Assembly (NCBI GenBank): GCA_949128115.1
Contig: OX421962.1
Coordinates: 9,456,262-9,520,261 of the forward strand
Direction: 5' to 3'
From: Anaspis maculata
Lineage: Eukaryota; Arthropoda; Insecta; Coleoptera; Scraptiidae
Length of the DNA: 64,000 nt
In this document: positions 18,855 through 53,262 of the stretch, in pieces
Numbering within the stretch: position 1 is the first letter of the stretch
Layout: every line of letters begins with the position of its first letter
Program-made: the position numbers and the translations under genes
Notes under the pieces: model-generated
Databases searched by the model: none
The model's input: only the letters and a program-made list of their open reading frames with translations
What the model was told of the DNA's origin: nothing

Positions 18855-19365
18855 CCGGAATTCAGTTTACTTTTCATTTCGGCATTCCCGGAATTTTTTC
18901 GGAAGTCACCGGACATCCTGGAACTTTTTCGGAAATCACCTCAAGTCCCTCGGAAATCACCGAAATTCCCGAAATTCTTTCGAAAATCACAGTACCGGAA
19001 TTCCCGAAAGTTTTTCGGAAATCTTTCGAAAGTCATCGTAATTCCCGGAATTTTTTCGGAAATCACTGGAATTCCCAGAAGTCTCTCGAAAATCACCGGA
19101 AACCACCGGAATTCCCGGAATTCTTCAGGAAATCACATCACTGGATTCCCAAAAAAAAAATCGGAAATCACCGGAATTCTAGGAAGTCTCTCGGAAATCA
19201 CCAGAATTCCTAGAAATCTTCTAGAAGTCACCGAAATCCTTCTGGAAATCACCGAAATCCCTGAAATTCTTTCGAAAATCACCGGAATTCCCGGAATTCC
19301 CGGAAGTCACCGGAAATCCTCGAAATTCCGGAAGTCAGAATTCTTGTGTACACTTTTTTCTCGGG
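18855..19365. repeat. ~30-bp minisatellite (CCGGAATTCCCGGAATTTTTTCGGAAATCA theme)
   Basis: About 15 diverged tandem units of close to 30 bp combine GGAATTCCCGGAA, a T-rich run and CGGAAATCACC. The 266-residue open frame 18624-19424 is produced by this repeat (it reads as reiterated EITGIPRSLSKITG-like units) and is not called as a gene. Confidence 0.7.
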
Positions 19366-21742: not shown

Positions 21743-21818
21743 GCGCAGCCGCTACAAGCCATGCCGATCTCAGATTTTCGCAAGAAAAAGCTCCTCTACG
21801 TATTCAACGTTTTCTTCG
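21743..21818 (+). CDS. Calexcitin-like EF-hand protein, first coding exon (start codon at 21761)
   Basis: After the acceptor TTATTGTTCCAG there are 18 bases of leader and then an ATG at 21761. It encodes MPISDFRKKKLLYVFNVFF, followed by the first base of a codon and a strong donor, G|GTACGTAA, at 21819. Basic residues followed by a hydrophobic LLxVFNxFF helix match the N-terminal helix of EF-hand 1 in calexcitin / sarcoplasmic calcium-binding proteins. The exon ends in phase 1; the exon at 53210 starts in phase 1 and completes an Asp codon. Together they give an intact EF-hand: helix, 12-residue loop, start of the second helix. The family consists of cytosolic Ca2+ sensors or buffers of about 180-200 residues, known from neurons and muscle; this function is inferred. 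Later exons are not in the window. Confidence 0.85.
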
Positions 21819-22225: not shown

Positions 22226-22569
22226 CTGGGAACTATTGCATCAAGTTCCTCGACCTTGAAAATGTGGAAGTCCAATGGAAGAATCATCAAAAAAGCACCA
22301 ACTTTGAAAATGGTATAACTTCTTATACTTCGACCTCCCCACAAAAAAAATGTCAAGCCTCGGACAGATGGGGACTTTTAGTATGTTGTTCTCCATCAAA
22401 TTCTGAAGGCTGGAGGAATCCTCAAATTTTCAGATTCTCGTTATAATTTATTCCGGGTTTCATCAAAATTTTGCATTTCTTTCCTGGGCTATTACCACTT
22501 CTCCTCAATTCTCAGATTTTTTTGTTCAAATCCACGATCGATCATTTCAGGAATCAATATGTATACATA

Positions 22570-23155
22570 TACAGGGTGTTTCAGGGATGATAGCAAAAAA
22601 TTCAACTGTGGGTAGATCTTGTCAAAATATGACGAAAACCTCTATACCATTTTGCAAAGCTCGGCCTAATAACGAAGATACAGCCCCCCAAAGTTCACTA
22701 ATTTTTGGATTTCAAAAATTTGTAACTCAAGAACGTTTCGACAAATTTTGCTTCAATTCAGCATAAACTGGTTTGTCATAATTGTTCATCAACCTGCCAA
22801 ATTTGGAGAGAATCCAATCAGCGGCGTAAAAGTTATGAGGGGTCACCTCAAGTCAACTTTTCTTCGGATGCTTCTGAATTATTGACCCTCATAACTCCTA
22901 CACCACTGGTTGGATTCTTTCCAAATTTGACAGGTTGACAGATAATTATGACAAACTAGTTTTTGCTGAATGAAGCTTAATTTGTCGGAACGTTCCTGAG
23001 TAACAAATTTTTGAAATCCGAAAAAAGTGAACTTTGGAGGGCTGTATCTTCGTCATTAGGCCGAACTCTGCAAAATGGTACATAGGTTTTCGTTATATTT
23101 TGACGAGATCTACCCACAGTTAAATTTTTTGCTATCATCCCTGTAACACCCTGTA
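22570..23155. mobile_element. Palindromic MITE, ~586 bp, TA target site
   Basis: Left end TACAGGGTGTTTCAGGGATG and right end CATCCCTGTAACACCCTGTA are inverted copies. The inverted pairing continues through nearly the whole element (for example 22600-22720 with 23010-23125, and 22860-22890 near the centre). TA flanks both ends (22568-22569 and 23156-23157). The CAGGGTGTT-type end and TA site are typical of non-autonomous Tc1/mariner-like elements; full-length hairpin potential is unusual. Confidence 0.8.
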
Positions 23156-23167
23156 TAATAAAAGAAA

Positions 23168-23700
23168 ATGCCAAATCTTTGTGCCGCTAAAACTCAAAAA
23201 CGAGTCCCGCTACGATCAAGGGAGTTATATGGTGTGGTAGCCCTTTATCCCCCATCGATGAAGAAAGTTTCCGTTTTTACCTCAAGGGCGTACTTTTGAA
23301 GGTGTAAGGGCTGGAAGTTTCTCGCCTTCTAGAAATGTCTAGAACAGTCCAGAACATTCGAGGGTATTCGGGATCATTCCGCAACATTCCAGAATGTTCC
23401 GTATGTTCTGGAATGTTCGGGAATAGTATGGAACGTAAGGATAATGAAAGTAAGTGTACACTGTTCGTGCCAAAACTCAGAAACGAGTCCCGGTACGACC
23501 AAATGAGTTATATGGTGTGGTAACCCTCTATCCCCCATCCATGAAAAAAGTACTCGGATTTATCTTAAGGGTGTATTTTTCAAAAATATAAGGGCTGGAA
23601 CTTTCGCCCTCTAGAACGTCTAGAACAGTCCAGAACTTACAAAAGTATTCTAGATAATTCCACAACACTCCAGAATGTTCTGGTATGTTTAACAATGTCC
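23168..23700. repeat. Two ~240-bp direct repeats at the edge of the TTCnnGAAnn satellite
   Basis: About 23168-23410 and 23455-23700 share AAACGAGTCCC, GAGTTATATGGTGTGGTA, TATCCCCCATC and AAGGGCTGGAA. Each copy ends in a stretch with CTAGAACAGTCCAGAAC that already resembles the satellite unit. They look like the junction or founder sequence of the array. Confidence 0.65.
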
Positions 23701-26700
23701 GGAAATAGCCTGGAACGTTCGGAAACATCGCTGAACCTTCCAGATTATTGTGAAACATTCAAGATCATTCCATAACATTCCAAGATCTTCCGGTATGTTC
23801 TGGAATGGTCGAAATAATCTGGAACGTTCAGAAACATTCCAGAACATTCCAATCCATTGTGGAACGTTCGAGATTGTTCCACAACATTGCAAAACGTTCC
23901 TGTATGTTCCTAGATGTTCGGAAAATCCCGTATCATTCCAGATCATGGTGGATTATTCGAGATCATAATAAAACAATCCAGAATGTTCCGGTATGTTCTG
24001 GAATGGTCGAAAATAGTCTGGAACGTTCGGAAACATCCCAGAATATTCCAGATCAATGTGGAGCATTCGTGATCATTCCACAACATTATAGAAGGCAACG
24101 GTATTATCAGGATACTCTGGAAGGCTTGGAAATATTCCGGAACATTCCGACCCATTGTGGAACATCCGAGATCATTCCACAACATTCCAGAATCTTCCGG
24201 TATATTCTGAAACGATCGAGAATGATCTGGAACGTTTAGAAACATCCCGGAACATTCCAGATAATTGTGGAGGATTTTTTATCATTCCACAACATTTTAG
24301 AATGTTTCGGTATGTTCAAGAATAGTCTGGAACGTTCGGGAACATTCCTGTACATTCCAATCCATTGTGGATCTGGAACGTCGGAAACATTCCAGAACAT
24401 TCCAATCCATTGTGGAACGTTCGAGATTGTTCCACAACATTGCAAAACGTTCCTGTATGTTCCTAGATGTTCGGAAAATCCCGTATCATTCCAGGTCATG
24501 GTGGATTATTCGAGATCATAATGAAACATTCCAAAATGTTCCGGTATGTTCTGGAATGGTCGGAAATAGTCTGGAACGTTCGGAAACATCTTAGAATATT
24601 CCAGATCAATGTGGAGCATTCGTGATCATTCCACAACATTATAGAAGGCAACGGTATTATCAGGATACTCTGGAAGGCTTGGAAATATTCCGGAACATTC
24701 CGACCCATTGTGGAACATCCGAGATCATTCCACAACATTCCAGAATCTTCCGGTATATTTTGAAATGATCGAGAATGATCTGGAACGTTTGGAAACATCC
24801 CGGAACATTCCAGATAATTGTGGAGGATTTTTTATCATTCCACAACATTTTAGAATGTTTCGGTATGTTCAAGAATAGTCTGGAACGTTCGGGAACATTC
24901 CTGTACATTCCAATCCGTTGTGGATCTGGAACGTCGGAAACATTCCAGAACATTCCAATCCATTGTGGAACGTTCGAGATCGTTCCACAACATTTCAAAA
25001 CGTTCCTGTATGTTCCTAGATGTTCGGAGAATCCCGTATCATTCCAGGTCATGGTGGATTATTCGAGATCATAATGAAACATTCCAAAATGTTCCGGTAT
25101 GTTCTGGAATGGTCGGGAATAGTCTGGAACGTTCGGAAACATCTTAGAATATTCCAGATCAATGTGGAGCATTCGTGATCATTCCACAACATTATAGAAT
25201 GCAACGGTATTGTCAGGATACTCTGGAAGGCTTGGAAATATTCCGGAACATTACAACCCATAGTGGAACATTCAAGATCATTCGATATGTTCTAAAATGG
25301 TCGGAAATGATGTGGAACGTTTAGAAACATCCCGGAACATTCCAGATCATTGTGGAGAATTTGTTATCACTCCACAACATTTTAGAATTTTTCGGTTTGT
25401 TCAGGAATAGTCTGGAACGTTCGAAAACATTCCTGTACATTCCAATCCATTGTGGATCATTCTAGATCGCTCCACAACATTCCAGAATGTTTCGGTATGT
25501 TCTAGAATGTTCGGTAATAGTCCGGAACGTTCGGAAACATTCCGGAACATTCCAATTCAATGTGGAACATTCGAGATCGTTCCTCAACATTCCAGAATGT
25601 TCCGGTATGTTCTGAAATGTTCGGAAGATCCCGGAAAATCGAAAATCATTGTGGAACATCCGAAATCATTCTACAACATCCCAGAATGTTCCGGTATGTT
25701 CGAGAATAGCCTGGAACGTTCGGAAACACCCCAGAATATCCCAGATCACTGTAGAACATGATCTGACTGAACATGACTGTTGATCATTTCACAACACTTC
25801 AGAATGTTCCGGTATTGTCGGAAATAGTCTGGAAGGTTCGGCAACATTCTGTAACATAACAACCCATTGTGGAACATTCGAGATCATTCCACAACATTGC
25901 AGAATGTTCCGGTATGTTCTGGAATAGTCGTGAATGATCTGGAACGTTCCGGAACATCCCGGAACATTCTAGATCATTTGGCGCATTCGTTATCATTCCA
26001 CAACATTGAAGAATGTTCCGGTATGTTCGAGAATCTGGAACGTTCGAACACATATCAGAACATTTCAATTTATTGTGAAATATTCTTGATCGTTCCATAT
26101 CATTCCAGAATGTTTCGGTATGTTCGAGGATGTTCGGGAATAGTCTGGAACGATCCGGAAACATCCCGCAACGTTAAAAAACATCCAGGAACATTCGAGA
26201 TCATTATGAAACATTTGAGATCATTGTGAAACATTCGAGATCATTCCACAACATTCTAGAATGTTCCGGTATGTTCCGTAATGTTTGCAAGATCCCGGAA
26301 CATTCCAGATCATTATGAAACCTTCGAGATCATTCTATAACATTCCAAAATGTTCCAGTATGTTTTGAAATGTTCGGGAGAATCGAGAGTATCCGCGGTC
26401 ACTCTGCAACATTCCAGAATGTTCCGGTATGTTCTGGAATGTTCGAGAATAGTCTGGAACGATCCGGAACATTCCAGATCATTGTAGAACATTCGAGATC
26501 ATTCCACAACATTCCAGAATGTTTCGATATATTCTGAAATGTTCGGGTAGCTCTAGATCATTCTAGATCATTCCACCACATTCCAGTATGTTCCGGTATG
26601 TTTTGGAATGGTGGGAAATAGTCTGGAACGTTTGAAAACATCTCAGAATATTCCAGATCAGTGTGGAGCATTCGTGATCATTCCACAACATTATAGAATG

Positions 26701-29180
26701 CAACGGTATTGTCAGGATACTCTGGAAAGCTTGGAAATATTCCGGAACATTCCGACCCATTGTGGAACATTCGAGATCATTCCACAACATTCCAGAATGT
26801 TCTAGTATGTTCTGAAATGGTCGGGAATGATCTGGAACGTTTAGAAACATCCCGGATCACTCCAAATAATTGTGGGGGATTTGTTATCATTCCACAACAT
26901 CTTAGAATGTTTCGGTATGTTCAGGAATAGTCTGGAACGTTCGGAAACATTCCGGAACATCCCAATTCAATGTGGAACATTCGAGATCGTTCCTTAACAT
27001 TCCAGAATGTTTCGGTGTGTTCTGAAATGTTCAAAAAATCGCAGATCATTGTGGATCATTCGAAATCATTCTACAACATCCCAAAATGTTCCGGTATATT
27101 CGAGAATAGCCTGGAACGTTCGGAAACATCTCAGAATATCCCAGATCACGGTGGAACATTTGTGATCATTCTACAACTCTCCAGAATGTTCCGGTATTGT
27201 CGGGAATAGTCGGGAAGGTTCGGCAACATTCCGTAACTTAACAACCCATTGTGGAACATTCGAGATCATTCCACAGCATTGCAGAATGTTCCGGTATGTT
27301 CGAGAATCTGGAACGTTCGAACACATTACAGAACATTCCAATTGATTGTGAAATATCCTAGATCATTCCACATCATTTCAGAATGTTCCGGTATCTTCTA
27401 GAATGTTCGGGAATAGTCTGGAATGATCCGCAAACATCCCGCAACGTTCAAAAATATCCAGAAACATTCCAGATCATTGTAAAACATTCGAGGTCATTCC
27501 ACAACATTCTAGAATGTTCCGGTGTGTTCCGTAATGTTTGGAAGATCCCGGAACATTCCAGATCATTATGAAACCTTCGAGATCATTCTATAACATTCCA
27601 AAATGTTCCAGTATGTTTTGAAATGTTCGGGAGAATCGAGAGTATCCGTGGTCACTCTGCAACATTCCAGAATGTTCCGGTATGTTCTGGAATGTTCGAG
27701 AATAGTCTGGAACGATCCGGAACATTCCAGATCATTGTAGAACATTCGAGATCATTCCACAACATTCCAGAATGTTTCGATATATTCTGAAATGTTCGGG
27801 TAACTCTAGATCATTCTAGATCATTCCACCACATTCCAGTATGTTCCGGTATGTTCTGGAATGGTGGGAAATAGTCTGGAACGTTCGAAAACATCTCAGA
27901 ATATTCCAGATCAATGTGGAGCATTCTTGATCATTCCACAACATTATAGAATGCAACGGTATTGTCAGGATACTCTGGAAAGCTTGGAAATATTCCGGAA
28001 CATTCCGACCCATTGTGGAACATTCGAGATTATTCCACAACATTCTAGAATGTTCTAGTATGTTCTGAAATGGTCGTGAATGATCTGGAACGTTTAGAAA
28101 CATCCCGGAACACTCCAGATCATTGTGGAGGATTTGTTATCATTCCACAACATCTTAGAATGTTTCGGTATGTTTAGAAATAGTCTGGAACGTTCGGAAA
28201 CATTCCGGAACATTCCAATTCACTGTGGAACATTCGAGATCGTTCCTCAACATTCCAGAATGTTCCGGTGTGTTCTGGAATGTTCAAAAAATCGCAGATC
28301 ATTGTGGATCATTCGAAATCATTCTACAACATCCCAGAATGTTCCGGTATGTTCGAGAATAGCCTGGAACGTTCGGAAACATCTCAGAATATATCAGATC
28401 ACTGTGGAACATTTGTGATCATTCCACAACTCTCCAGAATGTTCCGGTATTGTCGGGAATAGTCGGGAAGGTTCGGCAACATTCCGTAACTTAACAACCC
28501 ATTGTGGAACATTTGAGAGCATTCCACAGCATTGCAGAATGTTCCGGTATGTTCGAGAATCTGGAACGTTCGAACGCATTACAGAACATTCCAATTCATT
28601 GTGAAATATCCTAGATCATTCCACATCATTTCAGAATGTTCCGGTATCTTCTAGAATGTTCGGGAATAGTCTGGAATGATCCGGAAACATCCCGCAACGT
28701 TCAAAAATATCCAGAAACATTCCAGATCATTGTAAAACATTCGAGGTCATTCCACAACATTCTAGAATGTTCCGGTGTGTTCCGTAATGTTTGGAAGATC
28801 CCGGAACATTCCAGATCATTATGAAACCTTCGAGATCATTCTATAACATTCCAAAATGTTCCAGTATGTTTCGAAATGTTCGGGAGAATCGAGAGTATCC
28901 GCGATCACTCTACAACATTCTAGAATGTTCCGGTATGTTTTGGAATGTTCGAGAATAGTCTGGAACGATCCGGAACATTGCAGATCATTGTAGAACATTC
29001 GAGATCATTCCACAACATTCCAGAATGTTTCGATATATTCTGAAATGTTCGGGTAACTCCAGATCAGTCGAGATCATTCCAGTATGTTCCGGTATGTTCT
29101 GGAATGTTTGGAATATAGTCTGAAACGATCAAAAACATCCCGGAACATTCCAGATCATCGTGAAACTATAAACTATTGTG
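23330..29180. repeat. 110-bp satellite made of 10-bp TTCnnGAAnn subunits (heat-shock-element register)
   Basis: The core unit is 110 bp: the anchor CGGTATGT lies at 25493 and again at 25603. It splits cleanly into 22 five-mers that alternate TTCnn and GAAnn with substitutions (TTCCA GAATG TTCCG GTATG TTCTG GAATG...). Shorter 90-bp steps also occur (25603 to about 25692), still whole decamers. Perfect three-site heat-shock elements TTCCAGAATGTTC occur, for example at 23387-23399, 25590-25602, 26412-26424 and 27665-27677. Four contiguous sites lie at 26432-26449 and 27685-27702. Higher-order repeats of about 553 bp (23.95-25.2 kb) and 1,253 bp (26.4-29.0 kb) are superimposed. The many open frames on both strands are by-products. 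It decays into partial units to about 29415. Confidence 0.9.
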
Positions 29181-29415
29181 GACTATTCGAAGCCTTTTTA
29201 GTGTAGGGCCACCTATTGGTAGAGGTACAATACAGAATATTTGAGAGTATTCGAGATCATTTCGCATCATTCCAGAATGCTCCGGTATATTCTGGAATAT
29301 TCAGAGATAGTCTGGAACGTTCGGAAACATCCAGGAATATCCGAGATCATTGTGGAACATTCCAAAACACTCTCGAATGTTGTGGAATATTCTGGAACAT
29401 TGTGGACCATTCAAA

Positions 29416-31060
29416 ACCTTTTTGGTATGAGTGGGGCTACCTATTGGTAGGGGTATATGAAGCAAGATCCGTCGTGGTTTCGAACGCATGTTTCTTATCA
29501 GCTGTTGATAAAAAGGAGCTTGGGCTCGGGTAAAGGAGCAGAAGATCTGGCCAGTTCTGTAGCAAAACGGCGAAAACAAGAAAAGTAAAAGAACAGCAAA
29601 AAAATGAAAATGTCTGAGAGCGCGAGGCACGCTTACGTTCCCAACGAATCAGAATGAGCCCCGTGAAAAGCAGAGAAACTGAAGAACAACGAAATGAACG
29701 AATTGCGATACAATCTCATAACAAAACACTGCGAATGCAAGTCACCTTTGAGAATATCACCCTACGAGAAGCGCGGACGAGGACTAGGTTTCGCTTAGGG
29801 GCCGCGAAGCGGCCCTGGCGAAAGCTAATTATTACTGAAAGCGCGTCATAAACCTCCTGTACTTTTGCTTGCATCAGGTCAACATCTCTAAAGTCATCAA
29901 TTCCTTTCAAAACCTTCAGCCCGTGGAATTGTATCCGTCTTTCTTGGCAATTACCTTAATTCCAGTCAAGTTCACGGGCTTCAGTCTTTCACCGATCAAA
30001 GTCTTATGCCTGACATAAAACCGCTTCGCTCCTCCGTCTGTGCAACAGATCATTATTCATCATCAACTCCTGCGTTTTACTACACTGGGGCAGAGTGAAT
30101 TACGATTACGAAAATTAGATATAAAAGCACACGCCCGGACGCGTCTTCCCCCTTTTCCATCACCGCGTTCCTCGAGGCTTGTTTGAACCCGTTCGCCTTG
30201 TAAAAACATCACTTTCCCACTTTCGCACCGAGAAAGAGGTCGGTTTCATCAAATTGAATGGCATTCCCGCGCGCCATGGCTTTGCTCACCGACTTTGCAG
30301 GCTGCAGGGCATAGCCCAAGATCTGAGTAGTCAGGAACTTATTGCTCAAGCAAACAACAGTTGCTGTGTTTGGTGGACTAATTCGGACGAAACTCCGTTC
30401 GAGCGACGCTGAGCTCAGCTCAAATTTGAAGTGGGAGCACGCGTCGAGCCGAACGGCATCCCGATGAAGCGGAACAGCCCCCGCGCTAGCGGCCCTTCGC
30501 CTCGACATTCGGGGTCGTAGGCGCATGCAAAGAGAGGCACCGAAAGCATCGGCGGAGTAAAAGAGGTTTCAAATTAATTTTCGGGATTACCGACTCTTGA
30601 CGCGCCGAAAGCCGATGCCTGAGGTAATTTATTTGTATAGTCTTGAAGTTTTCGGCTTTGTTTGGAGCGCCGACCCTCCCACCCGACGTCGTCAGAGCTT
30701 ATTGTTGCCTTTCGGCCTTTTCTTTCGGATAAATAGGTGGGTACTTTGTTGTACTCCTTCGGAGTCTTTTAGAGCTCACTGCCGTAACAATGTGCCTCTG
30801 CTATACACAGTTATATGGTGTAGTAAGTATGTACGATAAAAAGTAACATTATGTAGCATAATTGAAATAGAATGCATGGCCTGATGCGGGGTGATTAAAA
30901 AGGGCAAATTACATTTTCAGCATGCACGCTAAACTTTTTAACGCACACATAACAAATTCACTGGGATACAGGGTGTCCGTTCATGATTTGGCCAGCTGTG
31001 GTGAAGACGATGACCAAATCAATTCCCACTCCAAACGGGCTCACGTTTTCCCACTTTCGC
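29416..31060. other. Gene-free, locally GC-richer island inside the intron
   Basis: No gene recognised. Unlike its surroundings it is not tandemly repeated. It has a TATAAAAG box near 30120, a GC-rich part around 30440-30530 with frames on both strands, and a CCGCGAAGCGG hairpin near 29802. The 105-residue minus-strand frame 30209-30526 shows no known domain. A regulatory or promoter role is possible but not supported. Confidence 0.35.
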
Positions 31061-32888: not shown

Positions 32889-34193
32889 TCTCGAAAATTT
32901 TCACTTGCGGGTCACATCCACATTCACACTGTTACATTATCAGGGCTGGGGAAAATTCTTCGATGAATGTTTTCAAATACGAAATACAAAATACTTGATC
33001 CAAAATACGTATCATGGAAAATTAAGAAATTCCAAATTACAAAATACAAAATCTCTAGAAGTCCCTGAAAATCTTGTCGAAGAATATTTAGAAATCTCTT
33101 GATATCCCATGCAAATTTTTGGATATCCTGTAGAAATCTATACAACTCACTCGAAGTTCTCAGAAATCCTTAGAAATCTTCAGAAATCTCTACTAATTTT
33201 GTACAAATCTTGAAAAGTCTTGAAATTCCCTGTAAACCTTCAGAAATCTCTCGAAATCCCATACAAATCTTCAAGAATCCTCAGAAATTCCATTCGAAGA
33301 TTTTTGGAAATCACTCAAATTCTTGTAAAAATCATGAAAATCGTAAAAAAAATCATGAAGTTCTTAAAGTGCCTTCTGACCCAATAAACACAAAAAATTT
33401 CGAAGATTTCGGGAAATTTCAACGTGATTTCTATAGATTTCTGGATATCTGTATGGAATTTCTAGAATATCCTGAAATTTTCTTGAGACTTTCAAAAATT
33501 TCTACGAGATTTCTTAGGAATCTGTCTTAGGAATCTCAAAAGATTTCTAGGAGATTTGTAGAGATTCCCAAAGACTTTAACGGAATAATTTCACTAGATT
33601 TCTGCAAATTTTTGAGGATTTCTAAAGATTTCAGTAATTTTCTAAGGAATTTTCAGGAATTTCTACGACAATTCTAGGGATTTCTGAAGATTTCTGATGA
33701 ATACCAATATTTTGTGAGGATCCATCAATATCCTTACAGTTCCTATAGATTACAAAAAGGCTTCCATGAAATTCTCAATAATTTCTGAAAATTTATAAGC
33801 AGTTTTAAAAATTTTATGGAATTTCTCGAGGAATTTCTAGAGATTTTTATGAAATTCTAGATATTTCACGACATCACCAGGAGTTTTCAATGATTTTCAA
33901 GAATTTCTACTAGGATATCTAGAGATTTATAACGATTCGTGAGAAATTTCAAAAATTCCCGACGATTTCCAAGTGATTTTGTAGGAGTTTTTTGAGAATT
34001 CTCAAAAGTTTGTATGGATTCTTCAATTATTTCTGCAGGATTTCAAAGAATCATAAAGATTTGTATCACATTCTAGGGATTCCTAAAGATTCTCATGAGA
34101 TTTTTGAAGAATTTCTATAGATTTGGGAAGATTTTCACAGGATAACTAAAGATATTCACGAAATTTTAGAATCATTGACATTGTCCTTTATAT

Positions 34194-34728
34194 TGTCGGA
34201 AAAGGTTAGGTTGACCCTTCCTGACTTTCTTGGGGCTGGTGTTTGCAAGCAGGGTGGAAGGTTTGAAAGAGCACACAGTAAAGTTTTATATAATTTTATT
34301 AACACACATTTCAATTTCACAACGACACCCGAGACGACATAAAGATGAGCCCAAACACAATCCGCCGTATAACAATAAAGTGATAATAAAATGAACAATT
34401 AATTATTAATTTAGACGGCGACGGGCATAGCGGCCCGCCGCAATTACAAAAATGAATTCGATGAAGAGCTATGGATACTCCTAGATTTATAGGCAACAGG
34501 AAACATCGTAGACCAATCAGATTGATGCCCGTTTCCTGGTGCTGGTGAACTTAGTACCACACGAGACATAAACTGCAAAGAGCATCGTTTGCAGTATCAG
34601 CATTCCTGTGGCACCTCGTTCTTTTTGCTGGAGACGATTAATGATTTATTATAATTTATACCTAATAAAACAATTCGTACTTAAGGGATGAGCCTTTCCC
34701 CTATGGCACTTCTGTCATGTTCATGACA
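34194..34728 (-). mobile_element. Probable solo LTR (535 bp) present in only one of two higher-order copies
   Basis: On the minus strand the segment starts TGTCATGAACATGACA and ends TTTTCCGACA, the TG...CA termini of retroviral-type LTRs, and carries an AATAAAATTATATAAAAC polyadenylation-like signal near its 3' part. The paralogous place in the second copy (about 37265-37293) lacks it, so it is an insertion. I could not find an exact 4-6-bp target duplication, hence the reserve. Confidence 0.5.
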
Positions 34729-34734
34729 TTATGA

Positions 34735-35440
34735 CTTGGTTGTTGGACAATAAAGCTCATTATTATTATTTTCACATATTTCGCGTACGGGTTCGAATAT
34801 AATTGAAACGATCGTTTCAAAACACATACACTGTTTATCACTGCGTACTACGATAAATACACGCCGACAATTATTTACGCTTGAAAATATCGCTGAGACT
34901 ATCGCTTCTTATCCGCTCGCTGTCTCTTCCAATTCAATACTGCTCGTGAGACGACGACTGATGCCTTATATAGGTCCGACTAGTTCATCTCGAATGTTCC
35001 ATGCATTCTCCAGTAGTTTACACAGTGACCCGACATACGGTTTCCATACGACTTTCGAAAAATCTTGCACGTTACCCGTATAATTATGCCGTGCTCTAGA
35101 ACCGGCGCCTCCGCCAAAATGAGCGGATGTGTCTTGATCGAGCGCTGAAGGTTCCCAATGCCAAACCATCGCGTATACTCCTGGAAATGTCCAAAAGCAC
35201 TTGTATCTACACCGCGACATAATGAACGGAAGAATCTAGAAAGATCGCGTGTTAACCAGAATGCACGGGATCGCCGCTCATAACATAAATATTCTGCTGA
35301 ATTACCATCGGAACTTCGAAGTCATTTAAATCTTAATTATTTCTTGTACAGAAAAATGCCGCTAGTATTATGCTATTTTTTGCCAACAATCGTATCCTTA
35401 TTCTGGCCTCGAAAGCCCATAGCGTCGGATATATGGATCA
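34735..35440 (-). repeat. 690-bp block, copy A, with an 84-residue minus-strand reading frame
   Basis: It starts at TGGTTGTTGGACAATAAAGC, includes GACGACGACTGATGCCTTATATAGG, and ends by merging into satellite after ATAGCGTCGGATATATGGATC. A reading frame on the minus strand (34966-35220) is closely matched in copy B, with VYAMVWHWEPS and FGGGAGSRARHNYTGNVQD then LLENAWNIRDELVGP. I do not recognise a protein family; the frame may be a relic of a mobile element. The ATAGCGTCGGATATATGG tail is also present in every 3.44-kb unit further right, so this block predates their amplification. Confidence 0.5.
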
Positions 35441-37292
35441 CTCGAAATCAGAAATTCTCACAAGAATCTTCAGAAATCCCGTAAATATTCCGAGAAATCT
35501 CACAGACTCTTCAAAAATCCCAGAGTTCAAAAGTTCTTAGAAATCTTATGCAATAATCTTCGAAAATTCTCAGGTATTCCGCAGAAACAAACAGAAATGC
35601 TTGGAAATTATATTAGGAATCCTTAAAAAAACTTCAGAAATACCTACAAAATCTTTTTAAAACTCTGGGAGGTCCCGTAGGAATCTTCAAAAATCCATAG
35701 AAGGTGTCGAAGTATTTTTAGAAATCCCATACGAATTTTCAGGATCTCGTGAAAAATTTTCCAAAATCCCTAGAAATTCACATGGAAGTCCTCGGAAATT
35801 CTGTAGAGATTCATTGAAATTCTCAAAAATCCTGTACAAATCTCTTGAACCCCCCAGGAACCTTCCAGAAATCTTAAAAGTATTCCCGTAGAGACCTTGA
35901 GAGATCCCTCAAATTTCCGTAGAAATCCTTGAGAAATCCCTTGAATTCTCGTAGAATTTAGGACTCCCCAGATCACCAGTTTTCCAAAATCTTGTAGAAT
36001 TATTTGGAATTTCCTAAAAATCCCGACAGCTGATTAGAATTTTTTCTCTATAAAATTTCATTATTTATTGAAAGTCTTTTAGAAATCTTCAGAAATCTTC
36101 AAAACTCCTCGAATTTTTGTAGAAATCTTGAGGAATCTCTGAGAATTTTGGAAAATCAGTACAAATTGCTAAGAAATCCCTAGAAATCCGATGCAAATTT
36201 TCAGAAATTTTGTAGAAATCCACAGACTCCCTAGAAGTTCTCAGACATCCTTAGAAACCTTCAGAAATCTCTACTTACCTTGTAGAAATCTTCAAAAGCT
36301 CAGAAAACGTTCAGAAATTCCTACAAATCCCATGCAAATCTTCAATAATCCTCATAAATTCCATAGAATTCTGAAGAAATCCATGAAAGTTCCTCGAAGA
36401 TTTTTAGAAATCGCTCAAATTCTTGTATACATTGTGAAAATCGTAAAAAAAAATCAAGAAGATCTTGAAGTGTCCTCTGACCCAACAAACACAAAAAAAA
36501 TTGAAAATTTCTAGGAATTTCGACCAGATTTCTGTAGATTTCTGGGTATCTGTATAGGATTTCTAGAATATTCTGAAAATTTCTAGGGACTGTCACAAAT
36601 TTCTACGAGATTTCTCAGTCTTAGGAATCTCGAAAGATTTCTATAAGATTTGTAGAGATTCCCGAAGACTTCAACGGAACTAATTCACGAGATTTCTGCG
36701 GGTTTTTGAGGATTTCTAAATATTTCAGTAATTTTCTAAGGAATTTTCAGGGATTTCTACGACAATTCTAGGGATTTCTGAAAGCTTATCTGAAATTCTC
36801 AATAATTTCTGAAAATTTATGAGCAGTTCTGAAGATTCTATGGAATTTCTAAAGATTTTTATGGGATTTCTAGATATTCCCACGAGTTCACCAGGAGTTT
36901 TCAGTGATTTTCAAGGATTTCTACTGGGATATCTTATCTTATCTTATCTTATATCTAGAGATTTATAACGATTCGTGAGAAATTCCAAAAAATTTCGACG
37001 ATGTCCAAGAATTACCATAAGTGTTTGGAAACTGCTAGGAGATTTCCAAAGATCACCAAAAATTTCTATAAGATTTTGTAGAAGTTTTTTGAGAATTCTC
37101 AAAAATTTCTATGGATTTTTCAATTATTTCTGCAGGATTTCAAGGAATCATGAAGATATGTATCACATTTCTAGGGATTCCTGAAGATTCTCATGAGATT
37201 TTTGAGAATTTTTCTAGATATTTGTGAAGATTTTGACAGGATAACTAAAGATATTTACGAATCTTTAGAATCATTGTTCTCTAGGTATGTCA

Positions 37293-37985
37293 CTTTTGGT
37301 TGTTGGACAATGAAGCTTACTATGATTATTCTTACGTATTTCGCGTACGTGTTCGAATATAATTGAGACGATCGTTTCAAAACACACACTGTTCATTACT
37401 GCGTACTACAATAAATACACGCCAACAATCATTTACGTTTGGAAATATTGCTGAGACTATCGTTTCTCATCCGTCCGCTGTCTCTTCCAATTCAATACTG
37501 CTCGTGAGACGACGACTGATGCCTCACATAGGTCCGACTAGTTCATCTCGAATGTTCCATGCATTCTCTAGTAGTTTCCACAGTGACCCGACATACAGTT
37601 TCCATACGACTCCCGAAATATTTTGCAAATTACCCGTATAATTCTGCCGTGCTCTAGAACCGGCGCCTCCGCCAAAATCAGCGGATGTGTCTTGATCGAG
37701 CGTTGAAGGTTCCCAATGCCAAGCCATCGCGTATACTTCTGGAAATGTCAAGAGCTCCGCACTTGTATCCACACAGCGACATGATGGATGAAAGAATCTA
37801 GAAAGATCGCGTGTTTACCAGAATGCACGGGATCGCCGCTCGTAACATTATTATTCTGCTAAATTACCAGCGGAACATCGGAGTCATTCGAATCTGAATT
37901 ATTTCTTGTACAAAAAAAATGCCGCTAGTATTATGCTATTTTTTGCCAACAATCGTATACTTATTCTGGCCTTGAAAGCCCATAG
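37293..37985 (-). repeat. 690-bp block, copy B, with an 82-residue minus-strand reading frame
   Basis: Paralogue of 34735-35440 with scattered substitutions. The minus-strand frame 37524-37772 keeps VYAMAWHWEPS, FGGGAGSRARQNYTGNLQN and LLENAWNIRDELVGP without stops. The shared frame could be chance given the low divergence. Confidence 0.5.
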
Positions 37986-38880
37986 CGTCGGATATATGGA
38001 TCACTCGAAAACAGAAATGCTCACAAGAATCTTCAGAAATCTTGTAAATATTTCGAGAAATCTCACAGACGTCTTTAAAAGTCCATGGAGATTTCTCAAA
38101 ATTCTCGTAATCTCCCAAAATTCAAATTTTTCAAAATCCCTAGAAATTCTCACGAAAGTTCTTGGAAATTCTGTAGAAATTCATTTAAATTCTCAAACAT
38201 CCCGTACAAATCTCTTGAACTCCCCAGGAATCTTCTAGAAATCTCAAAAGTAATCCCGTAGAGACCTTGAGAGATCCCTCGAATTTCCGTAGAAATCTTG
38301 ATAAATCCCTTGAATTCTCGCAGAATTTAGGAATCCCCAGATCTCTAACTTTCCAAAATTTTGTGGAAATACTTGGAATTTCCCAGACACTGATTAGAAT
38401 TTCTCCTCTATAAAATTTCAATGATCACTGGAAGTCTTGTAGAAAACTTCAAGAATCTTTAGAAATTTCTCGAATTTTTGTAGAAATCTTGAGAAATCTC
38501 TAGGAATTTTTGAGAATCAATACAATTTTTCCAGAAATAACTAGAAACTCTTTGAAAATCTTGTAGCAGTCTAAAAAATTCCACAGGAACCCTCAAAAAT
38601 TCCGTGAGTACCTACCTTTAGGAGTTACGAATAAATCTCTAGAAATGCTCAAAAAGTCCCCAAAAATCTCCTAGAATTCTTCAAGAATTACTAGAAATCT
38701 CGTACAAATCTTTATAAATTCGTGGAAATCCCGTGGAAATCTTGAGAAATCCATAGAAATTTTTGTGAGTCCTGAAAAAATCTCAAGGAATCTCTTCAAA
38801 ATCTTTCAGGAATATTTTTGAAATTCCTGGAAATCCCGTAGAAATCTACAAAAATCAATAGAGATTTCCAAAAATACTGA

Positions 38881-41800
38881 GCAACCTTCAGGATTCCCAT
38901 ACTAATGAACAGGAGCCGCAAAAGATGGCGATCAGCGAGGGAGTTTGCCAATGGAGCTGGGATGCCAGTTTTTCCATATTATTATTTTATTATTTTACAA
39001 TTTTGATTTCTCCATTTACAATGAAAAGTTCTAAATTTTCAACCATCCCCATTCACTGTATATTGATGTTCAAATACAGAAATCCGTGAGAATCCAGCAG
39101 AAATCTTGAAAAATACCTAGAAATTATCCAGGAATTTTTAAACGTCCAATACAAATCTTTAGAAATCCCTGAATTCTTGCAAATAAATTAAGTCGAAAAA
39201 AGGAATTGAGTGGAAAAGTGGGAGGAGAATCCTCAGAAATCTTGTAGAAATTTTCAGAAGCGCTCAAAAATTTTGTAGAATTATTCAGAAATCTCTAGAA
39301 ATCCCTTGAAATCCCATGCAGTTTCTCAGAAATCCTGTGCAGAAGTCTATAGTACTTCAGATAGATTTCTCCTAGAATCTCTTAGAATCTGAGAGATTCA
39401 TAATCATAATCATAATCATAATCATAATTTGGATAGATTGGATAGATAAATCGAAAAATTGTTTATTCAAAGAAAAAACTCCATAGAAGTTCTCAGATAT
39501 CCTTAGAAATCTTCAGAAATATTTACCAATCTTGTAGAAATCTGCAAATAGTCTTGAAATTCCCTGAAAATCTTCAAAAATTCCTAGAAATCTCATACAA
39601 ATCTTCAAGAATCCTCAGAAATTCCATAGAAATCTCAAGGAGTCTTCATATACCTATTCTGGCTTCGACAGCTCATAGCGTCAGATATATGGATCACTAG
39701 AAATCAGAAATTCTCACAAGAATCTTCAGAAATTTTGTAAATATTTCGAAAAAATTCACTGACGTCTTTAAAAATCCCTGGAGATTTCTCAAAATTCTCG
39801 TAATCTCTCAAAGGTTTCTAGATATCTCATGCAATAATCTTCAAAAATTCACAGGTATTAATTCACAGAAATGCTTAGGAATGCTTAAAAATTTCGAGAA
39901 ATACCTCAATACCTACAAGATCTTTCCAAAACTCTGGGAAGTCCCGTAGAAATCTTCAAAAATCCAGGATTCTCCCCAGTAATCTTCTAGAAATCTCAAA
40001 AGTAATCCAGTAGAGACTATGAGAGATCCCTTGAATTTCCGTAGTAATCTTAAGAAATCCCTTGAATTCTCGTAGAATTTAGGAATCTCCTGATCTCCAG
40101 TTCTCCAAAATCTTGTAGAAAAATTTGGAATTCCCTAGAAATCCCGTACAGTTGATTAGAATTTCTTGTCTATAAAATTTTAATAATCATTAGAGATCTT
40201 CTAGAAATCATCAAAAATCTTTAGAAATTCCTTGAATTTTTGTAGAAATCTTGAGAAATCTCTGAGAATTCTTGAAAATCAATACCAATTTCTTGGAAAT
40301 CTCTAGAAACAACGTGAAAATTTTTTGAAAACCTTGAAAATCTTGTAGCAATCTGAAAATTTCCACAGGAACCCTCAAAAATTTCGTGAATACCTTAAGA
40401 AATTACGTAAAAATCTCTAGAAATGCTTGAAAAGTCCTTAAAAATCTCGTAGAATTCTTAAGGAATCCCTAGAAATTTCATACAAATCCGAGTAGAAATC
40501 CTAATAAATTCCTAGAAATTCCGTAGAAATCTTGAATAGAATAGAATAGAATAGAAATTTATTCATACTTAAAACAATGAAATCATTGCATGTAAACGTC
40601 ACAAAATAATGGTCATCACAATACATACAAATGCACAAATATGACAGACATAACTCGTAAAAATGTCAACAAAACAAACAGTAACAACAACAATATCACA
40701 GCCTATCGCATATCCATGGACATTTTTAGGAGTCCTGGAAACATCTCTCCAAAATCTCTTCAAAATCTTTCAGAAATATTCTTGAAATCCCTAGAAATCC
40801 CGTAGAAATCTGCAAAAAGCAATAGAGATTTCCAAAAATACTGAGCAACCTTCAGGAAACCCATACTAACCAACAGAAATCCGTGAGGATCTAGCAGAAA
40901 TATTGAAAAATACCTAGAAATTATCCAGGAATTTTTTAAACGTCCGATTCAAATCATTAGAAATCCCTGAATTTTTGAAAATGAATTCAGTCGAAAGAAA
41001 GAATTGAGTTGAAAAGTGGAAGGAGAATCCTGAGAAATCTTGTAGAAATTTTCAGAAGCTCTCAAAAATCTAGTAGAAATATTCAGAAATCCCTAGAAAT
41101 CTCTCGGAATCCCAAGCAGTTTCTCAGAAATCCTGCAGAAATCTATAGTTTTTCAGATAGATTCTTCCTAGAATCTCTTAGAATCTAAAAGATTGGATAG
41201 ATAAATCGAAAAATTACTTATTCAAAGAAAAACTCCATAGAAGTTCTTAGAAATCCTTAGAAATCTACAGGAATATTCACCAATCTTGTAGAAATCTGCA
41301 AATAGTCTTGAAATTTCCTGAAAACCTTAAAAAATTCCTAGAAATCCCATACAAATCTTCAAGAATCCTTAGAAATTCCATAGAAATCTCAAGGAGTCTT
41401 CATATACCTATTCTGGCCTCGACAGCTCATAGCGTCGGATATATGGATTACTTGAAATCAGAAATTCTCACAAGAATCTTCAGAAATCTCGTAAATATTT
41501 CGAGAAATCTCACAGACGTCTTCCAAAATCCTAGAGTTTGAAAGTTCCTATAGAAATCTCATACAATAATCTCCAAAAATTCCCAGGTATTCCGCAGAAA
41601 TATAAACAGAAATGCTTAGAACTTATTAGAAATTCTTAAAAAATTTCAGAAATACTTGAATATGTACCTACAAAATATTTTTAAAACTCTGGGAAGTCCC
41701 GTAGAAATCTTCAAAAATCCATAGAAGGTGTCGAAGCATTTTTATAAATCCCACACGAATTTTCAAGATCTCGTGAAAATTTTTCACAATCCCTAGAAAT

Positions 41801-44800
41801 TCTCACGAAAGTTATCGGAAATTCTGTAGAAATTCATTTAAATTCTCAAACATCCCGGAGAAATCTTTTGAACTCCCCAGGAATCTTCTAGAAATCTTAA
41901 AAAAAAAACCGTAGAGACCTAGGAAGATCCCTCGAATTTCTGTAGAAATCTTGAGAAATCTCTTGAATTTTCGTAGAATTTAGGAATCCCCAGATCTCTA
42001 GTTTTCCAAAATTTTGTGGAAATACTTGGAATTTCCCAGAGGCTGATTAGAATTTCTTCTCTATAAAATTTCAATAATCACTGGAAGTCTTGTAGAAATC
42101 TTCAAGAATCTTTAGAAATTTCTCCAATTTTTGTAGAAATCTTGAGAAATCTCTAGGAATTTTTGAGAATCAATACAATTTTCCCAGAAATCACTAGAAA
42201 CTCCTTGAAAATCTTTCGAAAACTTTGAAAATCTTGTAGAAGTCTAAAAAATTCCACAGGAACCCTCAAAAATTCCGTGAGTACCTACCTTTGGGAGTTA
42301 CGAATAAATCTCTAGAAATGCTCAAAATGTCCTCAAAGATCTCCTTGAATTCTTCAAGATATACTAGAAATCTCATACAAATCTTTATAAATTCGTGGAA
42401 ATCCCGTGGAAATCTTGAGAAATCCATTGTCCTGGAAAAATCTCAAGGAATCTCTTCAAAATCTTCCAGGAATATTTTTGAAATCCCTGGAATTCCCGTA
42501 GAAATCTGCAAAAATCAATAGAGATTTCCAAAAATACTGAGCAACCTTCAGGATTCCCATACTAATCAACAGGAGCAGCAAAAGATGGCGATCAGCGAGG
42601 GAGTTTGCCGATGGAGCTGGGATACCAGTTTTTTCATATTAATATTTTAATATTTTACAATTTTTATTTCTCCATTTACATTGAAAAGTTCTAAATTTTC
42701 AACCATCCCCATTCACTGTATATTGATGTTCAAATACAGAAATCCGTAAGGATCCAGCAGAAATCTCGAAAAATACCTAGAAATTATCCAGGAATTTTTT
42801 AAACGTCCAATACAAATCTTTAGAAATCCCTGAATTCTTGCAAATGAATTAAGTCGAAAGAGGGAATTGAGTGGAAAAGTGGAAGGAGAGTCCTAAGAAA
42901 TCTTGTAGAAATTTTCAGAAGCTCTCAAAAATTTTGTAGAATTATTCAGAAATCTCTAGAAATCCCTTGAAATCCCATGCAGTTTCTCAAAAATCCTGTG
43001 CAGAAATCTATAGTACTTTATATAGATTTCTCCTAGAATCTCTTAGAATCTGAAAGATTCATAATCATGATCATAATTTGGATAGATTGGATAGATAAAT
43101 CGATAAATTGTTTATTCAAAGAAAAAACTCCATAGAAGTTCTCAGAAATCCTTAGAAATCTTCAAAAATATTTACCAATCTTGTAGAAATCTGCAAATAG
43201 TCTTGAAATTCCCTGGAAATCTTCAAAAATCCCTAGAAATCTCATACAAATCTTCAAGAATCCTCAGAAATTCCATAGAAATCTAAAGGAGTCTTCATAT
43301 ACCTATTCTGGCTTCGACAGCTCATAGCGTCAGATATATGGATCACTAGAAATCAGAAATTCTCACAAGAATCTTCAGAAATTTTGTAAATATTTCGAAA
43401 AAATTCACTGACGTCTTTAAAAATCCCTGGAGATTTCTCAAAATTCTCGTAATCTCTCAAAGGTTTCTAGATATCTCGTACAATAATCTTCAAAAATTCA
43501 CAGGTATGAATTCACAGAAATGCTTAGGAATGCTTAAAAATTTCGAGAAATACCTCAATACCTACAAGATCTTTCCAAAACTCTGGGAAGTCCCGTAGAA
43601 ATCTTCAAAAATCCAGGATTCTCCCCAGTAATCTTCTAGAAATCTCAAAAGTAATCCAGTAGAGACTATGAGAGATCCCTTGAATTTCCGTAGTAATCTT
43701 AAGAAATCCCTTGAATTCTCGTAGAATTTAGGAATCTCCTGATCTCCAGTTCTCCAAAATCTTGTAGAAAAATTTGGAATTCCCTAGAAATCCCGTACAG
43801 TTGATTAGAATTTCTTGTCTATAAAATTTTAATAATCATTAGAGATCTTCTAGAAATCATCAAAAATCTTTAGAAATTCCTTGAATTTTTGTAGAAATCT
43901 TGAGAAATCTCTGAGAATTCTTGAAAATCAATACCAATTTCTTGGAAATCTCTAGAAACAACGTGAAAATTTTTTGAAAACCTTGAAAATCTTGTAGCAA
44001 TCTGAAAATTTCCACAGGAACCCTCAAAAATTTCGTGAATACCTTAAGAAATTACGTAAAAATCTCTAGAAATGCTTGAAAAGTCCTTAAAAATCTCGTA
44101 GAATTCTTAAGGAATCCCTAGAAATTTCATACAAATCCGAGTAGAAATCCTAATAAATTCCTAGAAATTCCGTAGAAATCTTGAAAAATCCATGGACATT
44201 TTTAGGAGTCCTGGAAACATCTCTCCAAAATCTCTTCAAAATCTTTCAGAAATATTCTTGAAATCCCTAGAAATCCCGTAGAAATCTGCAAAAAGCAATA
44301 GAGATTTCCAAAAATACTGAGCAACCTTCAGGAAACCCATACTAACCAACAGAAATCCGTGAGGATCTAGCAGAAATATTGAAAAATACCTAGAAATTAT
44401 CCAGGAATTTTTTAAACGTCCGATTCAAATCATTAGAAATCCCTGAATTTTTGAAAATGAATTCAGTCGAAAGAAAGAATTGAGTTGAAAAGTGGAAGGA
44501 GAATCCTGAGAAATCTTGTAGAAATTTTCAGAAGCTCTCAAAAATCTAGTAGAAATATTCAGAAATCTCTAGAAATCTCTCGGAATCCCAAGCAGTTTCT
44601 CAGAAATCCTGCAGAAATCTATAGTTTTTCAGATAGATTCTTCCTAGAATCTCTTAGAATCTAAAAGATTGGATAGATAAATCGAAAAATTACTTATTCA
44701 AAGAAAAACTCCATAGAAGTTCTTAGAAATCCTTAGAAATCTACAGGAATATTCACCAATCTTGTAGAAATCTGCAAATAGTCTTGAAATTTCCTGAAAA

Positions 44801-47800
44801 CCTTCAAAAATTCCTAGAAATCCCATACAAATCTTCAAGAATCCTTAGAAATTCCATAGAAATCTCAAGGAGTCTTCATATACCTATTCTGGCCTCGACA
44901 GCTCATAGCGTCGGATATATGGATTACTTGAAATCAGAAATTCTCACAAGAATCTTCAGAAATCTCGTAAATATTTCGAGAAATCTCACAGACGTCTTCC
45001 AAAATCCTAGAGTTTGAAAGTTCCTATAGAAATCTCATACAATAATCTCCAAAAATTCCCAGGTATTCCGCAGAAATATAAACAGAAATGCTTAGAACTT
45101 ATTAGAAATTCTTAAAAAATTTCAGAAATACTTGAATATGTACCTACAAAATATTTTTAAAACTCTGGGAAGTCCCGTAGAAATCTTCAAAAATCAATAG
45201 AAGGTGTCGAAGCATTTTTATAAATCCCACACGAATTTTCAAGATCTCGTGAAAATTTTTCACAATCCCTAGAAATTCTCACGAAAGTTATCGGAAATTC
45301 TGTAGAAATTCATTTAAATTCTCAAACATCCCGTACAAATCTTTTGAACTCCCCAGGAATCTTCTAGAAATCTTAAAAAAAAACCCGTAGAGACCTAGGA
45401 AGATCCCTCGAATTTCTGTAGAAATCTTGAGAAATCTCTTGAATTTTCGTAGAATTTAGGAATCCCCAGATCTCTAGTTTTCCAAAATTTTGTGGAAATA
45501 CTTGGAATTTCCCAGAGGCTGATTAGAATTTCTTCTCTATAAAATTTCAATAATCACTGGAAGTCTTGTAGAAATCTTGAGAAATCTCTAGGAATTTTTG
45601 AGAATCAATACAATTTTTCCAGAAATCACTAGAAACTCCTTGAAAATCTTTCGAAAACTTTGAAAATCTTGTAGAAGTCTAAAAAATTCCACAGGAACCC
45701 TCAAAAATTCCGTGAGTACCTACCTTTGGGAGTTACGAATAAATCTCTAGAAATGCTCAAAATGTCCTCAAAGATCTCCTTGAATTCTTCAAGATATACT
45801 AGAAATCTCATACAAATCTTTATAAATTCGTGGAAATCCCGTGGAAATCTTGAGAAATCCATTGTCCTGAAAAAATCTCAAGGAATCTCTTCAAAATCTT
45901 CCAGGAATATTTTTGAAATCCCTGGAATTCCCGTAGAAATCTGCAAAAATCAATAGAGATTTCCAAAAATACTGAGCAACCTTCAGGATTCCCATACTAA
46001 TCAACAGGAGCAGCAAAAGATGGCGATCAGCGAGGGAGTTTGCCGATGGAGCTGGGATACCAGTTTTTTCATATTAATATTTTAATATTTTACAATTTTT
46101 ATTTCTCCATTTACATTGAAAAGTTCTAAATTTTCAACCATCCCCATTCACTGTATATTGATGTTCAAATACAGAAATCCGTAAGGATCCAGCAGAAATC
46201 TCGAAAAATACCTAGAAATTATCCAGGAATTTTTTAAACGTCCAATACAAATCTTTAGAAATCCCTGAATTCTTGCAAATGAATTAAGTCGAAAGAGGGA
46301 ATTGAGTGGAAAAGTGGAAGGAGAGTCCTAAGAAATCTTGTAGAAATTTTCAGAAGCTCTCAAAAATTTTGTAGAATTATTCAGAAATCTCTAGAAATCC
46401 CTTGAAATCCCATGCAGTTTCTCAAAAATCCTGTGCAGAAATCTATAGTACTTTATATAGATTTCTCCTAGAATCTCTTAGAATCTGAAAGATTCATAAT
46501 CATGATCATAATTTGGATAGATTGGATAGATAAATCGAAAAATTGTTTATTCAAAGAAAAAACTCCATGGAAGTTCTCAGAAATCCTTAGAAATCTTCAA
46601 AAATATTTACCAATCTTGTAGAAATCTGCAAATAGTCTTGAAATTCCCTGGAAATCTTCAAAAATTCCTAGAAATCCCATACAAATTTTCAAGAATCCTC
46701 AGAAATTCCATAGAAATCTCAAGGAGTCTTCATATACCTATTCTGGCTTCGACAGCTCATAGCGTCAGATAGATGGATCACTAAAAATCAGAAATTCTCA
46801 CAAGAATCTTCAGAAATTTTGTGAATATTTCGAAAAAACTCACTGACGTCTTTAAAAGTCCCTGGAGATTTCTCAAAATTCTCGTAATCTCTCAAAGGTT
46901 TCTAGATATCTCATACAATAATCTTCGAAAATTCACAGGTATTAATTCACAGAAATGCTTAGAAATTATTAGGAATGCTTAAAAATTTTGAGAAATACCT
47001 CAATACCTACAAGATATTTCCAAAACTCTGGGAAGTCCCGTAGAAATCTTCAAAAATCCAGGACTCTCCCCAGTAATCTTCTAGAAATCTCAAAAGTAAT
47101 CCCGTAGAGACTGTGAGAGATCCCTTGAATTTCCGTAGTAATCTTAAGAAATTCCTTGAATTCTCGTAGAATTTAGGAATCCCCTGATCTCCAGTTCTCC
47201 AAAATCTTGTAGAAAAATTTGGAATTCCCTAGGAATCCCGTACAGTTGATTAGAATTTCTTGTCTATAAAATTTTATTGATCATTGGAGATCTTCTAGAA
47301 ATCTTCAAAAATCTTTAGAAATTCCTTGAATTTTTGTAGAAATCTTGGGAAATCTTTGAGAATTCTTGAAAATCAATACCAATTTCCTGGAAATCTCTAG
47401 AAACAACGTGAAAATCTTTTGAAAACCTTGAAAATCTTGTAGCAATCAAAAAATTTCCACAGGAACCCTCAAAAATTTCGTGAATACCTTGAGGAATTAC
47501 GTAAAACTCTCTAGAAATGCTTGAAACGTCCTCAAAAATCTCGTAGAATTCTTTAGGAATCCCTAGAAATTTCATACAAATCCGAGTAGAAATCCTAATA
47601 AATTCCTAGAAATTCCGTAGAAATCTTGAAAAATCCATGGACATTTTTGGGAGTCCTGAAAACATATCCCCAAAATCTCTTCAAAATCTTTCAGAAATAT
47701 TCCTGAAATCCCTAGAAATCCCGTAGAAATCAGCAAAAATCAATGGAGATTTCCAAAAATACTGAGCAACCTCCAGGAAACCCATACTAACCAACAGAAT

Positions 47801-53209: not shown

Positions 53210-53262
53210 ATGTTAATCAAAGTGGAACCATCGATAGGAAGGACTTTGAGCTCGCTATCGAG
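53210..53262 (+). CDS. Calexcitin-like EF-hand protein, second coding exon (53 nt)
   Basis: Between GTGTTTCAG (ending 53209) and the donor GAG|GTAAATAT (53263) lie 53 bases that complete a Asp codon and encode VNQSGTIDRKDFELAIE. With the last base of the previous exon this gives loop DVNQSGTIDRKD: Asp, Asn, Ser and Thr at positions 1, 3, 5 and 7, Gly at 6, Ile at 8, Asp at 9 and an acidic residue (Asp rather than the common Glu) at 12. This is a canonical calcium-binding EF-hand loop followed by the start of its second helix. The exon ends in phase 0. Calexcitin and sarcoplasmic calcium-binding proteins have this motif directly after the N-terminal helix encoded at 21761-21818. The continuation is not found before 64000. 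Confidence 0.85.

Follow-up and report, generated by a model that had tools for sequence, protein, structure and literature searches.

Heat-shock elements (HSEs) within Helitron transposons have been described in Caenorhabditis. As reported in the part of Garrigues et al. (2019) available to us, the heat-shock factor (HSF) HSF-1 and RNA polymerase II (Pol II) occupy Helitron HSEs in C. elegans, Helitron copies there can exceed 100 HSEs, and a survey of UCSC metazoa placed HSE enrichment in the Helitrons of Caenorhabditis only (PMC6927752). Helitrons and Helentrons of the oyster Crassostrea gigas hold central satellite arrays, according to the accessible part of a second report (PMC8268682). 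Our literature search returned no paper on an HSE in an insect Helitron; among the matches listed for Helitron, heat shock, and HSF, no title named an insect, and no paper was titled for HSE satellite DNA in insects. Here we analyze a 64,000-nucleotide stretch of the beetle Anaspis maculata (contig OX421962.1, positions 9,456,262 to 9,520,261; hereafter the window, to which all coordinates refer), in which an earlier note had described an intronic satellite of heat-shock-type decamers at 23330 to 29180. Judged from its sequence, this feature is the interior of a non-autonomous Helitron with TC and CTRR-type ends, and the Helitron is probably HSE dense by accident of its decamer, TTC-YR-GAA-YR.

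A non-autonomous Helitron around the array

The standing of the array as a free satellite is refuted by Helitron ends that are common to other genomic copies. When the non-array ends were aligned, the edges common to the window and 20 other loci fell at about 23154 (5′) and about 29827 (3′). Cross-locus alignments start at 23154 to 23161 in 15 of the 20 loci and later in L011, L012, L017, L021, and L027. A pattern search over these 21 sources (the window plus 20 loci) recovered 11 3′ ends from 10 of them, of which nine read CTAG/T (the slash marks the edge of the element), the window reads CTAA/T, and L023 reads CTAT/G; since the search pattern held CTAG, with up to four mismatches allowed, CTAG is favored by the search. 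The hairpin next to the 3′ end of the window copy has a GC-rich 8-bp stem (−17.9 kcal/mol in a DNA fold, z = −4.59, with 0 of 200 shuffles as good). By eye, the hairpin is short or degraded in 3 of the 11 3′ ends (the plus-strand copy in L018, L022, and L025).

A corresponding search yielded 17 5′ ends from 16 of the 21 sources. Ten of the 17 read A/TC(A or G)ATA, or 11 with the window's own end beyond a nested insert; an A precedes TC in every case, and the other six lack the motif or are abutted by other DNA. In the window, the 5′ end, A/TCAATATGTATACATATA, lies on the far side of a foldback insert and reads A/TCAATA. We take position 22554 as the putative 5′ end of the Helitron, which leaves A (22553) and T (29829) as the bases flanking the element at 22554 to 29828. 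No target-site duplication was seen by eye at the flanks of the window copy, the only copy examined.

Related copies lie on at least nine contigs. A search with the 5′ kilobase gave at least 242 matches (40 of 736 candidates scored), and a search with the 3′ end gave at least 42 (40 of 250 scored), the other 41 listed 3′ matches having 77 to 91% identity to the window copy. From its family membership, we infer that the family spread by rolling-circle transposition. Helitron_like_N had 18 matches in the genome, 14 of them with E values of <1e-22, and Pfam also identifies Helitron_like_N frames. In L018, near 7075 on the minus strand, two Helitron copies stand head to tail (...CTAG/TATATAATAAAAG). 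A 296-residue open frame at L013:6308-7198, within a Helitron copy, seems to resemble part of a non-LTR (long terminal repeat) retroelement protein.

Heat-shock elements and the decamer

The decamer register TTCnnGAAnn proposed in the earlier note is borne out by 541 full in-phase decamers of the form TTC-YR-GAA-YR counted by a phase model in 23330 to 29180. Across 23620 to 29180, self-identity at lag 10 was 0.549 versus 0.259 expected from base composition. Contrary to that note, however, the register is not perfect: of the 541 decamers, 279 keep an unaltered TTC and 186 an unaltered GAA, the longest run of perfect half-sites is four, and there are 46 phase jumps, part of them within a non-array stretch. 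Within the proposed range, 23437 to ~23619 is not array; it is the start of the second copy of a ~285-bp block (about 23441 to 23723). A 110-bp unit had also been proposed, and a period of 109/110 was indeed found with Tandem Repeats Finder (TRF), but unit length varies (periods of 89, 99/100, 109/110, 169, 179, 209, and others). TRF reported a period of 10 at 29289 to 29412, in the last decamer stretch.

The decamer is self-complementary, so that its GAA half-sites fall 5 bp apart and alternate in orientation, as they do in an HSE. Forty three-site HSEs were counted in 23330 to 29180 (31 TTCnnGAAnnTTC and 9 GAAnnTTCnnGAA), compared with a mean of ~0.2 in 200 dinucleotide shuffles, along with seven four-site and no five-site HSEs. 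All six coordinates singled out in the earlier note (23387, 25590, 26412, 26432, 27665, and 27685) are perfect three-site HSEs, and those at 26432 and 27685 extend to four sites. Spacing from GAA to TTC has maxima at 2 bp (102 counts) and 12 bp (87 counts), versus ~4 in shuffles, and three-site density peaks at 11 per kb. Outside 23154 to 29827, the window has 18 three-site HSEs in 57.3 kb. The 20 other loci (200 kb) hold 400, versus 4 in three control loci (18.5 kb). The predicted HSF-type site architecture is thus, as proposed, far above composition-matched chance. The array motif is not uniquely that of HSF, because CATTCCA strings, presumably TEAD-like, are about equal in number to the HSE pairs in the array (92, 102, and 64).

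A different picture came from a phase-preserving control in which each decamer column was permuted and the 10-bp period kept. For the window, 80 three-site and 32 four-site HSEs were expected from column permutation, whereas 38 and 7 were observed in in-phase runs; for the 20 other loci (3,761 decamers), 730 and 328 were expected and 316 and 45 observed. The HSE load is no greater than the decamer implies. The earlier note had named motif density accounted for by the decamer among the grounds that would tell against its proposal, and this is the outcome of the phase-preserving control. We do not claim the depletion of multi-site HSEs as avoidance of HSF: because the units are related, the control mainly places weak half-sites at fixed unit positions.

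Recent duplicates within the window array point the same way. Blocks of 553 bp and ~1253 bp recur at 95.0 to 96.4% identity in four alignments, in which 71 of 1,796 half-site columns changed versus 53 of 1,197 spacer columns (P = 0.57; neighboring alignments share blocks, so that columns are not wholly independent). Half-sites and spacers have thus changed equally, with no signal of constraint there. The recurrence of these blocks within the window copy also indicates that its array lengthened locally. In 19 of the 20 other loci, the phase model gave a summed array length of 1.1 to 2.6 kb; the remaining locus, L018, has 3.95 kb and holds more than one element.

Competing accounts of the array

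Taken as a whole, we consider it likely that the feature is an internal Helitron minisatellite in intron 1, with HSEs that stem from the decamer and an array that grew locally. A Helitron family would have spread through the genome carrying the self-complementary TTC-YR-GAA-YR, and this decamer alone could supply the alternating half-sites and hence the HSEs. The array of the window copy would have grown to about 5.6 kb through local 553-bp and ~1253-bp duplication, and its half-sites would by now be drifting in much the same way as its other positions. In open chromatin and under heat, HSF trimers might be expected to bind where three or four sites adjoin, and the window copy would then be a stress-responsive intronic element of an incidental kind at most.

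Several observations weigh against this account. An autonomous Helitron with the same ends was not found in the two lineages examined; L037 (a 1,017-residue frame) and the L030/L038 lineage (a 2,391-residue frame) were rejected as partners because their ends are not common to the element. One partner comparison gave only matches of 15 to 21 bases (best E value, 0.061), three of the six at the foldback-insert end, and no match to the 3′ hairpin. Another gave no match; in it, the alignment toward the 3′ side of the second lineage broke off at a single mismatch in the reading frame, short of the 3′ end. Divergence among copies (21 rows over 23154 to 24340, each copy versus the column majority) was lower outside CpG in matched half-sites (7.6%) than in spacers (10.6%), for each of the four bases, which may reflect some constraint in source copies or exchange between units and is the main result against the account. 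Within the array, moreover, transition-type variation is far greater in spacers than in half-sites. Decay of CpG was judged an unlikely cause of this variability (C-to-T change of 0.064 at CpG versus 0.077 elsewhere), and because it explains the spacer transitions poorly, past constraint on TTC-YR-GAA-YR is possible.

In favor of the account, the non-array sequence of the element is better kept (5.8% divergence) than matched half-sites are (7.6%), in the same order for each base; unmatched half-sites diverge by 15.8%. The four other arrays of ~10-, 20-, or 30-bp period in the window, which have other motifs, count on the same side. Among spacer sites, divergence is higher at CpG (15.6%) than elsewhere (10.6%); this is not a methylation signature, since transversions are raised too (6.4% versus 3.5%). 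The CpG observed/expected ratio of the window is 0.91. A candidate ancestral decamer is TTCCGGAACG, with spacers that are mostly CA, TG, CG, or TA. At three of the four spacer positions, the purine/pyrimidine pattern is preserved to about the same degree as at the half-sites or better, which would not be predicted from HSF alone. Of the core bases, the G of GAA, the key contact of HSF, is kept least often (0.66).

The lower divergence of matched half-sites among copies and the greater variability of spacers within the array would also suit a Helitron family that recruits HSF selfishly, its HSEs having been selected in source copies for opening, transcription, or mobilization under heat, and neighboring genes, here one of calexcitin/juvenile hormone diol kinase (JHDK) type, having been made heat responsive. 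Such recruitment has a precedent in the HSF-1 and Pol II occupancy reported for Caenorhabditis in the part of that paper available (PMC6927752), and it would suit the 40 three-site HSEs within 5.85 kb, at up to 11 per kb, and the excess of HSEs at the 20 other loci over the control loci. However, multi-site HSEs fall short of the number expected from the decamer columns alone, the G of GAA is the core base least kept, the recent duplicates are without constraint, and no close recent sibling of the window copy is present among the 41 listed matches. On balance, we regard selfish recruitment as possible but unlikely. In a broader proposal, HSE arrays would have arisen or been amplified independently in a Helitron family outside Caenorhabditis, and very many HSF sites, dispersed over an insect-like genome, would have drawn host genes, the calexcitin/JHDK-type gene among them, into the heat-shock response. 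This is in our judgment doubtful; if true, HSF capture would be a recurrent Helitron strategy.

The earlier note had also raised the prospects of a nuclear focus and of helical phasing. A heat-inducible focus like that of satellite III (SATIII), or a sink for HSF, would fit dense, regularly spaced GAA/TTC half-sites, and in human cells SATIII transcription is driven by HSF1, as described in the accessible part of one report (PMC9032817). Yet a dispersed, few-kilobase Helitron on at least nine contigs is unlike a large pericentric block, and we consider a focus or sink extremely improbable here. A structural array, in which the 10-bp unit is kept for its match to the helical repeat (through nucleosome contact or curvature) and not for HSF, would draw on the power of strong-base dinucleotides at 10.0 bp (14.1) and on four other arrays in the window with periods of ~10, 20, or 30 bp and different motifs (18.9 to 19.3, 33 to 50.5, 55.4 to 57.8, and 58.1 to 59.0 kb); repeat units near helical length seem to recur in the window. 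The strong-base signal weakens, however, at slightly longer periods (10.2 bp, power of 4.0; 10.5 bp, 1.6), and in the main array AA/TT power is 16.6 at 5.0 bp, where wedges should cancel, versus 1.5 at 10.0 bp and 0.7 at 10.5 bp. Because AA/TT recurs at 5 bp and not at 10 to 10.5 bp, phased-A-tract curvature is not expected, and the curvature proposed in the earlier note is left without support; a structural role is very unlikely.

Surroundings and comparison with known systems

The coordinates of the Helitron, its parts, and its host gene are given in Table 1. The proposed location in an intron of a calcium-protein gene was confirmed: exons 1 and 2, with GT/AG splice signals, flank a 31.4-kb intron 1, and the 37-residue peptide that they encode together matches juvenile hormone diol kinase 6kth (E value, 8.9e-15) and calexcitin 2ccm (E value, 2.1e-8). 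The Helitron has the orientation of the gene and starts ~0.7 kb past exon 1.

Table 1. Features of the window around the decamer array
Feature	Position	Strand	Basis or detail
Non-autonomous Helitron (predicted), 5′ TC to 3′ CTRR-type end	22554-29828	+	Ends common to other copies
Nested foldback (palindromic) element, ends CAGGGTGTT...AACACCCTG	22572-23153		Inverted repeats of 153, 86, and 54 nt
Helitron 5′ unique segment, opening the first ~285-bp block copy	23154-23339	+	Cross-locus alignments
Short first decamer stretch	23340-23436	+	Three-site HSEs at 23387, 23406, and 23411
Main decamer array TTC-YR-GAA-YR with HSE-like sites	23620-29170	+	Phase model, TRF, duplicate alignments
Last decamer stretch, past a short non-array spacer	29243-29412	+	Three-site HSEs at 29290 and 29385
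3′ terminal hairpin GGGGCCGC-GAA-GCGGCCCT, outer stem reaching CTA, CTAA terminus	29785-29828	+	
Exon 1 (coding part), calexcitin/JHDK-type EF-hand gene	21761-21818	+	MPISDFRKKKLLYVFNVFF/G, donor GTACGT
Exon 2, calexcitin/JHDK-type EF-hand gene	53210-53262	+	DVNQSGTIDRKDFELAIE, acceptor TTTCAG, donor GTAAAT

The foldback element (~580 bp) interrupts the TA-rich 5′ Helitron tract, which is present on both sides of it, and because of this insertion the window lacks the 5′ Helitron motif beside the body of the element. The same foldback end adjoins the TA-rich 5′ Helitron tract in L014 and L024, which suggests that this tract is a preferred foldback target.

Among the other short-period arrays, that at 33000 to 50500 also lies in intron 1; it is diverged and ~17.5 kb long, with a period of ~10/21/31 bp, an AGAAATC-type motif, and some blocks repeated ~3.5 kb apart; the others lie at 18900 to 19340 (30 bp), 55400 to 57800 (10/21 bp), and 58100 to 59000 (20 bp). 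The intronic array has 13 three-site HSEs versus 1.4 in simulation, and that at 55.4 to 57.8 kb has 2 versus 0.13; the arrays at 18.9 to 19.3 and 58.1 to 59.0 kb have none. On the minus strand at 611 to 1667 are retroelement reverse transcriptase and RNase H frames, with a top match in Coccinella septempunctata (64%). Elsewhere in the genome, Helitron-like protein frames reach 2,411 residues at L030, L031, L036, and other loci, with DUF6570 in L030; L030, L031, and L036 are identical across 3,462 bases, as if recently active. The Rep frame of L037 has at most 51% identity among the matches listed (120 of 2,547).

The comparisons that follow rest on those parts of the cited papers that were available to us. 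Like TCAST1 of Tribolium, the element belongs to dispersed insect repeats near genes, and for TCAST1 an effect of heat stress is described; there, however, the effect is that of a satellite on nearby genes, and the part of the paper available makes no claim of HSEs (PMC4537270). Human satellite III is a tandem repeat targeted by HSF1 under heat shock, to which the HSE-like repeat here can be compared, but it is pericentric, whereas the repeat here lies in a dispersed transposon (PMC9032817). The oyster elements are closer in layout, with terminal segments around an internal tandem array, a dispersed distribution, and variable array length; their monomers are mostly 160 to 180 bp, in contrast to a 10-bp base unit within HSE-rich units of ~90 to 110 bp (PMC8268682).

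In HSE content, the Helitron resembles HelitronY1_CE and HelitronY4_CE of Caenorhabditis, which have clustered, overlapping HSEs (PMC6927752). The element described here holds high-density clusters of canonical HSEs, and its maximum of 11 per kb stands beside the >10 HSEs of some 1-kb windows in Caenorhabditis, although the consensus used in that survey, NGAANNTCCNNGGAN, differs from the HSE counted here, so that the densities are not directly comparable (PMC6927752). Caenorhabditis copies lie near genes (PMC6927752), and the copy here lies in intron 1. In contrast to Caenorhabditis, the HSE here follows from a palindromic decamer, HSF sites are predicted from the sequence, and the host genome is one of 758 Mb whose gene and retroelement relatives are insect-like. 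For motif-based claims, the locus offers a caution, since comparison with shuffles will make an HSE cluster of any array of TTCnnGAAnn decamers. Helitrons that contain a minisatellite are known; a unit that forms a dense HSE lattice outside Caenorhabditis appears to be new. A second HSE-rich lineage would allow one to ask whether Helitrons have repeatedly used the heat-shock response or whether palindromic 10-bp repeats are merely HSE-like, and of these two we favor the latter.

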